Below, in pieces: positions 18,459 to 64,000 of a stretch of DNA of 64,000 nt. This DNA is from Pontibacillus sp. HMF3514. Its GTDB lineage: Bacteria; Bacillota; Bacilli; Bacillales; BH030062. The stretch lies in the NCBI RefSeq assembly GCF_009858175.1, contig NZ_CP047393.1:806001-870000 (forward strand), read 5' to 3'. The notes below the pieces were generated by a model. The model had not been told where the DNA came from and did no database searches. It saw nothing but the letters and a program-made list of their open reading frames with translations. Both the position numbers and the translations under genes were made by a program. The stretch's first letter is position 1. Every line of letters begins with the position of its first letter.

Positions 18459-18540
18459 ATTTATGCCATTAAAGCCCCCTTATATGGAAGACTTGATTTC
18501 GAGATATTGTGCGGTGAAGGTCCGTTGCTTTTATGAGGGG

Positions 18541-18726
18541 GAGGGGTTCAGTGAAACGGCAATACTCCTGCTGCCCCACACGACGTGGGGTAGGTCGACG
18601 TTGCCACACGATGTGGCGGTCTTAGTCGATCTTCATTATTTACTTTCAGCCTCCTCGTCACTTCGTTCCTGCGGGGTCTCGGCCGCCCTTTCTACCGCGG
18701 GAGTTTGCCGTTTCCCTCACCCCTTT
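18541..18726 (+). repeat. Hairpin module type C, copy 1 (inside mosaic element 1)
   Basis: Outer arms GAAACGGCAATACTCC (18553-18568) and GGGAGTTTGCCGTTTC (18699-18714) pair with one mismatch and extend outward. Inside are two tight hairpins: CCCCACACGACGTGGGG (18574-18590) and GCCACACGATGTGGC (18603-18617). The latter is enclosed by a GGTCGAC/GTCGATC stem. The same architecture recurs inverted at 51480-51635, with compensatory base changes in the enclosing stem. Confidence 0.75.
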
Positions 18727-19010
18727 GCGTTTATGGAGATTAACGGACTCTGGTTGTGTGATTTCTTAACCTTACGGACATCTGTTCCGTTATTTTATCT
18801 TAATCTAACTTCATTGAAGAGCTTACGGACATTCATTCCGTTATTTGCTTCAAATCACCTTGAAAAAGACCAATTTGTCACAAATAAGGTATCATATGTC
18901 CGTAACGACTCTCGTAATGCCTTAAAAGTTCAAAATAAAGGAACAGATGTCCGTAAGCATCGACCTCTCAACATCGCTGCGGTTCCGTTATTCACCATTT
19001 GGCCAAGGTG

Positions 19011-19122
19011 GGCTGTGGAACGGGTTGACTCCTCCGGTAGAAAGGGCGAGCGAGATCCCGCAGGAACGTAGTGACGAGGAAGCTCGATCGGTCTTCCGGG
19101 GAAAGCAACCCGTTCCACAGCC
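19011..19122 (+). repeat. Hairpin module type B, copy 1 (inside mosaic element 1)
   Basis: Perfect 17-bp arms GGCTGTGGAACGGGTTG (19011-19027) and CAACCCGTTCCACAGCC (19106-19122) enclose about 78 bases containing GGGCGAGCGAGA, CCCGCAGGAACG and AAGCTCGATCGG. The inverted copy at 61006-61119 has compensatory changes in the arms. A half copy lies at 22161-22205. Confidence 0.8.
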
Positions 19123-19261
19123 CGCCGAACTGCATAAACATAACGGAACCTCCCCGCACCAGCTTATTCAAGATAACTGCCATTTTATTGAATAAATCAC
19201 TTGTAAGCAATGTAAGCTTTTTATAGGAATTATGAAAAATATCTCGAAATCAAAAGTCTTT

Positions 19262-22139: not shown

Positions 22140-22266
22140 GTGAAACGGCAATACTCCTCCGGAAGCTCGATCGGTCTTCCGAGGAAAGCAACCCGTTCCA
22201 CAGCCGGCCTAACTGCACAAACGTAACGGAACCACCCCGCACCAGCTTATTCCACATTACTGCCAT
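22140..22266 (+). repeat. Mosaic intergenic element, copy 2 (deleted hybrid)
   Basis: Bases 22140-22159 match the left arm of hairpin module C (GTGAAACGGCAATACTCCTC). From 22161 the sequence continues as the right half of module B (AAGCTCGATCGGTCTTCC, then CAACCCGTTCCACAGCC). It ends with the shared right module (AACGGAACCACCCCGCACC, CTTATTCCACATTACTGCC). The join lies at the short ACTCCTCC stretch common to both modules, as expected for a deletion between them. Confidence 0.75.
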
Positions 22267-22303
22267 ATAGTTAAACAACTATTAACAAAAATATCATGAT
22301 TAC

Positions 22304-51258: not shown

Positions 51259-51276
51259 GTGTGGATGTTCCATAAA

Positions 51277-51715
51277 CCCCCCCTTATATGGAAGACTTGA
51301 AATCGAGATAATGTGCGTATGGTTCCGTTGCTTTTGTGCAGCCCGCCTTTGCCTAATGGAGACTAACGGAACCGCTCATGACAAGGGTCTGAGCAACTTC
51401 TATGAATATGATTTCCAATCAATATGAGAGGGGAATCTCTAAATTATGGTCCGTTAGTCTCCATAATCGCGTGGAGGGAAGGAAACGGCAAACTGTCGTG
51501 GTAAAAAAGGGAAGACGAGACCCCGCAGGAACGAAGAGGCTATACAATGGAGGTTCTACTAAAACCGCCACATCATGTGGCAACGTAGAACTACCCCACG
51601 TCGTGTGGGGCAACAACAGGCTTGCCGTTTCACTGACTGCAACAAATTACTCAATAGCAACGGACTCCTCTCAGTTTCAAGTCTTCAACAATCCTGCCAT
51701 ATTATTGCATAAGGC
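51277..51715 (-). repeat. Mosaic intergenic element, copy 3
   Basis: About 440 bp between yhaM and yhaL. The left end CCCCCTTATATGGAAGACTT and GAAATCGAGATAATGTGCG match the left end of copy 1. It contains GGTTCCGTTGCTTTTGTGCA, GCCCGCC, TAATGGAGACTAACGGAACC (51353-51372) and an inverted copy of hairpin module C (51480-51635). The right border TTCAAGTCTTCAACAATCCT with GCCATAT resembles the end module less well. The rest of the 588-base gap is A+T-rich leader of yhaL. Open frames through it are not supported. Confidence 0.72.
51480..51635 (-). repeat. Hairpin module type C, copy 2 (inside mosaic element 3, inverted)
   Basis: Arms GGAAACGGCAAACT (51481-51494) and GGCTTGCCGTTTCACT (51619-51634) enclose the hairpins GCCACATCATGTGGC (51567-51581) and CCCCACGTCGTGTGGGG (51594-51610). 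The stem around the first hairpin is GTTCTAC/GTAGAAC, compared with GGTCGAC/GTCGATC in copy 1. Both sides of the pair have changed and pairing is kept. Confidence 0.75.
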
Positions 51716-51809
51716 CTTGTGTATTGCAGGAGAATTAGTAAATAAGTCATATTCACCTGTTTCATCACATATGCTTGTACAAACAAGGTAATATAAGGGA
51801 GGTTATTCC

Positions 51810-60924: not shown

Positions 60925-61250
60925 GTTTATTCAATTATATGGCAGTTATCTGGAATAACTGTTTTAGTGAGAGAGGCGGTTCCGTTGCTATTGTGGAGTG
61001 CGGCAGGCTTGGGAACGGGTTGCTTTCCCCGGACGAACGATCGAGCCTCCTCATCCGCTACGCTTCTTGCGGGGTCTCGCTCGCCCGTTTTCCCGGAGGA
61101 GTCAACCCGTTCCCAAGCCCACCTTAGCCATAATGGTGACTAACGGAACCGCAGCTATCGTAAGGTTTTCTGATATAGAATATGTGGTTACATCATATAT
61201 GCATCAAAGTGATCTAAAGCCTTATATGTAAAGGGGGTTAGTATCTAAAA
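60925..61250 (-). repeat. Mosaic intergenic element, copy 4 (inverted)
   Basis: On the plus strand it opens with TATATGGCAGTTATCTGGAA and ends with CTTATATGTAAAGGGGGTTA. In inverted sense it has the same order as copy 1: TGCGGTTCCGTTAGTCACCA, hairpin module B, the AACGGAACCGCC stretch and the CAGATAACTGCCATATAA end. Module C and the TTACGGACAT repeats of copy 1 are missing. It fills the gap between yhaH and trpP, in which no gene is seen. Confidence 0.78.
61006..61119 (-). repeat. Hairpin module type B, copy 2 (inside mosaic element 4)
   Basis: Perfect 17-bp arms GGCTTGGGAACGGGTTG (61006-61022) and CAACCCGTTCCCAAGCC (61103-61119). Compared with copy 1 (19011-19122) the arm bases GT/AC have become TG/CA on both sides, preserving every pair. 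The interior (inverted) keeps GACTCCTCCGG, GGGCGAGCGAGA, CCCGCA and GGCTCGATCG. Confidence 0.8.
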
Positions 61251-63269: not shown

Positions 63270-63690
63270 ATAAAATAATAAAAGGCAAAGCACTTCCGAA
63301 GAAGTACTTTGCCGAAGAAGGCGAGAGTAAGTTGTCGGTGTATCTAAATGGATACATTGGGGACTACTCTGACATGCGTGGGGTCGCCACTATGTTTGAA
63401 TCAGCGGTAAGCGATTCAAAAATCATGCACAGAGTGCGCTATTATACCTGCTGTCAACACCTCATTTGTCTAAGAAAATGTGTGTGTTTCAACCTCAAAC
63501 CTAATGGTGGAGATCTAAATCAGCATGGTCTTTCACTGACACCTCATTTCGATTTTTAAGCCTAAACTTAAGAACTTCAAGGGTCGTTCAGTGATCGGTA
63601 ACGACAAATTACTCTGTTGCCTTCAAGAGTTATATTGCACAAAATCATAAGATACTATGCGGATTTTTTATAGGAGTTGTATTTAATCCT
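63270..63690. other. Non-coding region with three hairpins, possible small RNA
   Basis: H1 GGCAAAGCACTTC-CGAA-GAAGTACTTTGCC (63284-63313), H2 TGTATC...GATACA (63339-63356) and H3 TTTGAATC...GATTCAAA (63395-63420) lie in a row. The words ACACCTCATTTG (63458) and ACACCTCATTTC (63540) occur about 80 bases apart. An open frame of 75 codons crosses the region but lacks a ribosome site and any recognisable domain. No known RNA class was identified. Confidence 0.4.
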
Positions 63691-64000
63691 TATTCCGTTA
63701 TATGGCAGTTATCTTGAATAAGCTGGTGCGGGATGGTTCCGTTACGTTTATGCAGTTCGGCGGGCAGTGGTCTCTTGGGAAGGGACAGTAATCCCTCGGG
63801 TAGGCGACGGAATCGCTCGGGTAGGTGACGGAATCGCTCGGGTAGGTGACGGAATCGCTCGGGTAAGCGACGGAATCGCTCGGGTAGGCGACGGAATCGC
63901 TTGGGTAAGCGACGGAATCGCTCGGGTAGGCGATGGAATCGCTTGGGTAGCCGATGAAAAGCTCGTATTATCTCGAATCCAAGTCTTCCAAATAAGGGGG
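63691..64000 (-). repeat. Mosaic intergenic element, copy 5 (cut by or ending at the window edge)
   Basis: It opens with TATTCCGTTATATGGCAGTT and ATCTTGAATAAGCTGGTGCG, then GGTTCCGTTACGTTTATGCA and GTTCGGCGGGC, the inverted right module of copy 1. It ends with TTATCTCGAATCCAAGTCTT and CCAAATAAGGGGG, the inverted left end of copies 1 and 3. Between these ends the interior is not a hairpin module but a 21-bp tandem array. Confidence 0.8.
63771..63959 (-). repeat. 21-bp tandem array, about nine units
   Basis: Nine consecutive 21-base units, the inner seven close to TCGCTCGGGTAGGCGACGGA plus A and the outer two degenerate. Variation is mainly C/T and A/G at the words CTC/CTT, TAG/TAA and GCG/GTG. 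Several units allow a TCGCTT/AAGCGA mini-stem. The array lies wholly within mosaic element 5 and is related to the three units at 8531-8593. Confidence 0.88.

Follow-up and report, generated by a model that had tools for sequence, protein, structure and literature searches.

Mosaic intergenic units of Pontibacillus sp. HMF3514 may be gene-less cassettes exchanged at fixed docking sites

Introduction

In the Xer-dependent dif modules of plasmids, short two-arm sites bound exchangeable modules and an Xer-type enzyme acts on them; to our knowledge, gene-less units spread over a chromosome have not been described for these modules. BOX repeats are likewise modular. The Pontibacillus units reported here share with the dif modules short two-arm sites and a candidate Xer-type enzyme, a likeness of description. 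With MITEs and with BOX and bcr1, the latter two being named as bacterial repeats in excerpts of one report (PMC2267715), the units share, by description, an intergenic location, high copy number, structure and a modular build, but they lack target duplications, occupy fixed docking sites and are linked to a cassette array.

GInt islands, RIT elements and Tn554-type elements encode their own recombinases, according to excerpts of the reports on them (PMC5385486, PMC3414803). The source genome of the present units contains similar clusters of three tyrosine recombinases, whereas the units themselves encode no recombinase. For integrons, excerpts of the IntegronFinder 2.0 report give one complete integron in Firmicutes, that of Limnochorda pilosa, and complete integrons as nearly unknown in Gram-positive spore formers (PMC9024848). 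In the open-licence papers searched, we found no description of the unit family or of the Bacillales arrays described below.

The window analysed is a stretch of 64,000 nucleotides, bases 806001–870000 of the source genome (G000, one contig of 3,976,892 bases). The YhaM protein it encodes shares 99% identity with its counterpart in Pontibacillus marinus, which was the closest named record. A preliminary description had noticed at least five intergenic blocks with common end modules and variable interiors, and had suggested that they could be non-autonomous mobile elements or structured RNAs moved in trans. The evidence presented here, read from sequence, favours site-specific recombination and a link with an array of gene cassettes whose sites have a matching layout.

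Results

A typical unit consists of a left end, hairpin 1, a middle part (TTACGGACAT repeats or other sequence), hairpin 2 and a right end. Unit 1 (18475–19181, + strand, CCCCC...CTGCC), with boundaries taken from the comparison of close copies, begins with a left end that includes a long arm, followed by hairpin 1 (GGTCCGTT...AACGGAC, 18519–18749), a region of TTACGGACAT / ATGTCCGTAA repeats (18771–18962), hairpin 2 (GGTTCCGTT...AACGGAACC, 18981–19150) and a short arm, all on the + strand. It is bordered by the left docking arm TTATGCCATTAAAG (18461–18474, +), an outer arm of the type that is unlinked to the interior and common to orthologous sites, and by the right docking arm ATTTTATTGAATAA (19182–19195, +), also placed by close-copy comparison. 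Two ORFs, 18463–19071 (202 aa) in this block and 51402–51791 (129 aa) further on, overlap the repeats and are probably not genes.

Unit 2 (22140–22264, +) is shortened to a partial hairpin and the right end CTTATTCCACATTACTGCC, without a left end by the pattern used, and adjoins the right docking arm ATATAGTTAAACAA (22265–22278, +). Unit 3 (51279–51698, +) lies between the docking arms ATGTTCCATAAACC (51265–51278, +) and ATATTATTGCATAA (51699–51712, +) and has a second class of right end (CAAGTCTTCAACAATCCTGCC). Unit 4 (60941–61250, − strand, far end approximate) comprises a right end and hairpin 2 (60978–61150), again without a left end by the pattern used, next to the docking arm ATATAATTGAATAA (60927–60940, −). 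Unit 5 (63704–64000, −) carries a 21-bp array of 7.9 copies (63790–63954), in agreement with the preliminary description; its right docking arm is ATATAACGGAATAA (63690–63703, −), its CCCCC core is at the window edge and its left docking arm lies outside. The positions of the arms of units 1, 2, 3 and 5 were checked. Thus, of the five blocks said to have the same ends, those starting at 18475 and 63691 have both ends as described, the one at 51277 has the other right-end class, and those at 22140 and 60925 retain a right end. The limits of the modules also had to be redrawn, as the exchange unit ends at CCCCC and TGCC and a further 14-nt arm on each side behaves as if it belonged to the site. 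The higher G+C content of the blocks (0.47–0.56 vs 0.34–0.40 in the flanks) was noted correctly.

Within the window, the left module occurs in 3 copies (≤3 mismatches; none in shuffled sequence) and the right module in 4, against 0.23 expected. The ends recur in the 3.98-Mb genome: 104 left ends (≤2 mismatches) and 99 right ends (≤3 mismatches) were found on both strands, with none in the reversed controls. Among the 100 left ends listed, 73 are paired with a right end on the same strand 176–699 bp away. Adding the 27 left and 26 right ends that have no partner gives 126 loci, of which 93 could be delimited as units of 220–743 bp. According to a simple ORF caller, 57 of the delimited units lie between tandem genes, 35 between convergent genes and one between divergent genes. 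In 49 of the 93 a T-run is located no more than 45 nt from the left end, and 59 have an A-run equally close to the right end, both at loose distances. With a shorter left-end pattern, eight Pontibacillus genomes contain 104, 95, 91 (G007), 59, 15 (G006), 5 (G004), 0 and 0 copies, G003 being one of those with none, while each of 53 genomes outside the genus contains 0–2, like the reversed control.

The boundaries of the units were defined by comparing close copies, whose interiors are at least 97% identical over at least 120 nt (93 left-anchored and 78 right-anchored pairs from 89 units). Within these pairs most positions are identical up to the invariant cores, CCCCC on the left side and TGCC(A) on the right, where identity stops; in the 14-nt arms outside, it is at or near background. 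Because identity drops at once outside the cores, the outer 14 nt behave as part of the site. The two docking arms form a dyad (0.615 vs 0.353 for shuffled pairings) and keep the motif TTATTCCATTAAAG / ATATAACTGAATAA, and (G)CC is common to the exchange points of both ends. The right ends fall into two classes, A and B, with only ~19 nt in common, at the outside. No target duplication stood out in 73 units when repeat lengths of 2, 3, 4, 5, 8 and 9 were compared at many offsets with shuffled pairings, and nothing stood out in the covariation of left and right outer arms. A profile scan of the available sequence gave nothing convincing as an empty docking dyad, which counts against a cassette reading. 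A gapped docking pattern matched only sites of right-end layout in the source genome, at 20 places, each on both strands and not each traced to a unit.

The comparison of orthologous intergenic regions proposed in the preliminary description was carried out with the sister species G002, in which the flanks of the compared sites are 87–97% identical to those of the source genome. In 790 kb of G002, both flanks were found for 16 of the 126 loci, and all 16 hold 266–1147 bp between them. At 14 of 15 informative sites (site 108 was left out), the interior in the source genome is closer to a paralogue in the same genome than to the G002 orthologue, and interiors within the genome are 95–100% identical to their paralogues. 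Sites 46, 110, 122 and 124 are incompletely delimited; all 11 fully delimited sites favour the paralogue. Site 124, where the orthologue is the better match and the interior has been kept, counts against a cassette reading.

The docking arms follow the site. In a hand-made comparison, similarity between orthologous sites was 0.847 for left docking arms (0.735 shuffled, n = 14, p = 5e-5) and 0.838 for right docking arms (0.757 shuffled, n = 15, p = 1e-4), while the right inner arms showed no agreement beyond shuffling (0.756 vs 0.730, n = 15, p = 0.27). Sites 46, 108 and 110 were excluded for the right arms and sites 108, 122 and 124 for the left arms, and P. marinus was included for two sites of the window, with both arms at 51277 and with the right arm at 60925. 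An automated version, which included the false row of site 108 and missed most left arms, gave p = 0.008 for the right inner arms and p = 0.21 for the left docking arms (n = 5), and both values again count against a cassette reading. At the 51277 site P. marinus carries a different unit, and at the 60925 site it has the docking arm with one base changed, followed after GGCAG by a different inner arm, that of the other right-end class. In P. yanchengensis, the places that correspond to 51277 and 60925 are both without a unit, though a related left end is present beyond the next gene. The 18475 unit is missing from G002 together with its docking arms; this sole empty place is evidence against a cassette reading. 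Taken together, the cores act as boundaries, the outer arms follow the site and the interiors resemble paralogues; the units therefore appear to be replaced at fixed docking sites. The sharp boundaries and the different units at the same site in sister species support the earlier proposal of non-autonomous elements moved in trans.

Screening for tyrosine recombinases drew attention to a region at 318–357 kb of the source genome, in which an array of ORFs (322.7–349.7 kb) lies between two 407-aa recombinases, YR1 and YR2. The YR1 gene is directed away from the array, has a long dyad upstream of its start and lies beside what we take, from its tail, to be groEL. The array has 13 co-oriented sites, and in 10 cases the site follows a stop codon, by ORF calls, at a distance of no more than 80 nt. 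They were first detected with ≤11 mismatches in 30, a setting at which shuffled sequence gave 10 matches over all stretches; of 17 single matches in the array stretch, 4 that had no core were left out. Each site consists of a short arm, the core GCGCC and a long arm ending ACTTGAATTCGAGATAA. A profile built from the 13 sites found 8 sites in one stretch of genome G001 (L388) with scores of 38.9–57.9 (shuffled maximum 0.0). Among 397 genomes of the order, from 135 genera, 32 from 9 genera contain the motif ACTTGRATTCGAGATA, against one genome for the reversed control. The identical YR1 of G002 lies next to ORFs whose lengths differ.

The left end of the units is laid out like the array sites, with a median array-profile score of ~42. 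When the inner ends of each unit were joined, the resulting site scored 43.0 for class A (69 units) and 33.6 for class B (20 units); the lowest score among all 89 units was 24.9, compared with a maximum of −4.6 in 100,000 random sequences. The joined ends fit no better than the native left end (43.0 vs 41.8 for class A, 33.6 vs 42.1 for class B), and the long arm supplies much of the joined-end score, a point against a cassette reading. For class A, the short arm of the unit itself is a better fit to the array than the docking arm is (14.0 vs 6.1); for class B it is a poorer one (5.8 vs 7.0).

A candidate 280-aa Xer-like recombinase is encoded inside the array (337109–337951). Its nearest solved relatives are XerD and XerC/XerA proteins, with IntI4 matching one short stretch, and its R, K, HxxR, H and Y align with the catalytic residues of XerC and XerD. 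With a score of 220.4 it lies just above the cut-off (220) of the XerA model NF040815, a model whose product name refers to integron integrase as well. The protein is identical in G002, which has a second copy at 96% identity; G001 has two copies (83%) within arrays, as in the source genome, and in G003, which has no left ends, the gene is seemingly broken. A genome of another genus contains a 76% identical protein (partial sequence) together with the site motif. The recombinase was not found in G007, G006 and G004, which have 91, 15 and 5 left ends, respectively, and this weighs against a cassette reading.

Relatives of the 280-aa protein that are 60–63% identical are encoded on Bacillales plasmids. 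Two of the four such loci read have intergenic right-end-like dyads, TTATTCAACTAAACTGCCATTTTGTTGAATAA, and a second dyad type, found by a repeat search (L427 and L429) and then with a pattern built from its results. In L429, a dyad follows the stop codon within 80 nt for 15 of 23 minus-strand genes, as compared with 9.6% of random positions. With the pattern used, no dyad was found on the Peribacillus simplex and Cytobacillus solani plasmids, which also encode relatives, and the array-site profile had no match on the four plasmid loci, a further result against a cassette reading. The plasmid CP053689.1 (L429, L431) is filed as Arthrobacter citreus; its genes include one for a small acid-soluble spore protein and one for a recombinase of Bacillales type, and its species label looks wrong.

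Clusters of three recombinases are present in G000, G002 and G001, and G007 has four recombinases; these are the four high-copy genomes. In the source genome, the adjacent tyrosine recombinases of 541, 386 and 303 aa are at 352173–355826, and two of 407 aa (349853–357389) adjoin the array. The trio and the 407-aa proteins are identical to those of G002 while the neighbouring DNA is several per cent divergent, which suggests recent transfer. No trio gene is present inside the 93 delimited units.

Mobilising enzymes were sought in the Y1, serine and tyrosine families. For Y1, the source genome yielded a single REP-associated tyrosine transposase (RAYT; L297, 1330–1863, at ~3.434 Mb), which lies between two GTGCCTGACCCCC palindromes. 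It was rejected as the mobiliser of the units, as its flanking palindrome differs from theirs; RAYT and the GTGCCTGACCCCC palindromes are a separate REP system. A serine recombinase was also rejected: the source genome has one, and similar-sized ones, with orthology judged by length only, are present in all eight genomes, with or without units.

Two 67-nt pieces of the window match the Rfam family Bacillaceae-1 (RF01690) above its gathering threshold of 35, one in hairpin 1 of unit 1 (18575–18641, −, 68.3 bits) and one in unit 3 (51543–51609, +, 64.5 bits). In the units read, the motif is at the hairpin apices. Of 58 matches above threshold in the genome, 38 are in or near units and 20 are elsewhere, so that the Rfam family covers a nested piece of some units and also occurs outside them. 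Within the units, Rfam covers these pieces only. The cores of hairpins 1 and 2 appear to be reverse complements of each other. Of 61 genomes, 16 contain the hairpin core pattern, and 13 of these 16 do not belong to Pontibacillus; the core, GAGACCCCGCAGG..CGAGGAGGCTC, is dispersed in several Bacillales (G027, G035 and 11 more) without the Pontibacillus ends.

At consensus Watson–Crick positions, 18 of 56 pairs in hairpin 1 and 8 of 58 in hairpin 2 show an alternative Watson–Crick pair, and compensatory change is therefore seen. Together with the Bacillaceae-1 pieces, this partly supports the part of the earlier proposal that concerned structured RNA. For consensus Watson–Crick pairs in hairpins shorter than 200 nt, G–T and A–C cells number 54 vs 23 in hairpin 1 and 85 vs 18 in hairpin 2; the remaining mismatches are more numerous than either (150 and 172 cells). 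Over whole arms, G–T exceeds A–C in hairpin 1 (113 vs 29 contexts) and A–C exceeds G–T in hairpin 2 (53 vs 37 contexts). Because the whole-arm and restricted counts disagree for hairpin 2, we draw no conclusion on the strand.

Discussion

We consider it fairly probable that the blocks are gene-less cassettes which belong to an integron-like tyrosine-recombinase system and are swapped at fixed docking sites by site-specific recombination. In the proposed mechanism, each unit, from core to core, would contribute the long arm TTATSTGGAAGACTTGGAATCGAGATAA from one of its ends and the short arm CTTATTCCAGATAAC from the opposite end. In a putative circular form, these ends would together make a single site (short arm – GCC – long arm) with the layout of the sites that separate the gene cassettes in the array. 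At its core, this site would then recombine with docking sites scattered over the chromosome, each of which consists of two short arms, TTATTCCATTAAAG and ATATAACTGAATAA; the enzyme would be a tyrosine recombinase, with the array-borne Xer-like 280-aa protein as the most likely one. Such an insertion would produce hybrid ends without a target duplication, and later rounds would replace the occupant in place; the docking arms would therefore stay while the inner arms and the interior change. The mosaic look would be due to the cargo, namely two inverted hairpin copies, TTACGGACAT repeats, the 21-bp array and the Bacillaceae-1 motif. Copy number, unit boundaries, the different units at orthologous sites and the array with its site layout are observed; the circle, the enzyme, the direction in which events ran and their order, and the role of the cargo are inferred.

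A different site-specific enzyme, such as a serine recombinase, an IS110-type enzyme with a (G)CC core, or YR1, YR2 or the trios, is unlikely. The (G)CC at the exchange point of both ends would suit such an enzyme, and the genomes with recombinase clusters match those of high copy number, but the trios are not beside the scattered units, and serine recombinases similar in size to the single one of the source genome are found in both unit-free genomes. An ordinary MITE, whose copies jump when a DDE or other transposase acting in trans cuts the ends and prefers a palindromic target, is unlikely. Inversely similar ends, the absence of genes inside and sharp boundaries all fit transposition, and the preliminary description had left room for a transposase. 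This explanation is at odds with the lack of a direct repeat among the lengths and offsets tested in 73 units and with the different palindrome of the sole Y1 transposase, and it would need repeated precise loss and gain to place different units within the same docking arms in sister species.

Gene conversion, in which ancient fixed repeats would swap interiors by RecA-dependent recombination, accounts for sites common to sister species and for the near-identity of interiors within the genome. We nevertheless regard it as quite unlikely, as the points of exchange at either end lie within cores of ~5 nt, the docking arms of close pairs are at background identity, and the two right-end classes have little in common beyond their outermost part. 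Least probable by far are immobile regulatory or RNA elements, that is, transcribed structured RNAs or insulators after genes. The Bacillaceae-1 matches, the compensatory changes, the excess of G–T over A–C cells at consensus pairs and the location of 92 of 93 units outside divergent gene pairs speak for them; the replaced interiors at orthologous places, the two places without a unit in P. yanchengensis and the larger number of other hairpin mismatches speak against them.

The cassette reading resembles an integron in that co-oriented ORFs are each followed by a recombination site, a cassette would carry one site split over its two ends, exchange would occur at a short core, and a recombinase gene (YR1), whose product may act on the array, is directed away from it beside a larger dyad. 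It differs in that the candidate recombinase is Xer-like and far below the integron integrase model TIGR02249 (103.1 bits, cut-off 265) and is itself encoded inside arrays, in that none of the 13 array sites has a GTTRRRY core, which is also absent from the left-end and right-end consensus on either strand, and in that most Pontibacillus units are gene-less, single and at scattered sites. Because the protein scores below the cut-off of the integrase model and the GTTRRRY core is absent, we do not file the system as an integron, though it would work like one. A broader proposition, which we put forward tentatively as a possibility, is a chromosome-wide integron analogue of Pontibacillus with more than 100 docking loci, in-place exchange of gene-less hairpin cassettes and an Xer-derived recombinase that is itself cassette-borne, with related gene-cassette arrays, both plasmid-borne and chromosomal, in other Bacillales. 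If true, Xer-type cassette exchange would be at work in Gram-positive spore formers outside the IntI/attC lineage, a class of mosaic bacterial repeats would be explained as the gene-less side of a cassette system, and the units would represent natural recombinase-mediated cassette exchange with many genomic landing sites.

The source genome also contains an island with large recombinase-like genes (569, 742 and 415 aa, and neighbours) at 2386368–2398556. Long dyads with a GGCC core are present at 2375468–2375532 and 1109000–1109064, with the same neighbouring sequence in inverse order, and are perhaps the ends of a larger mobile island.
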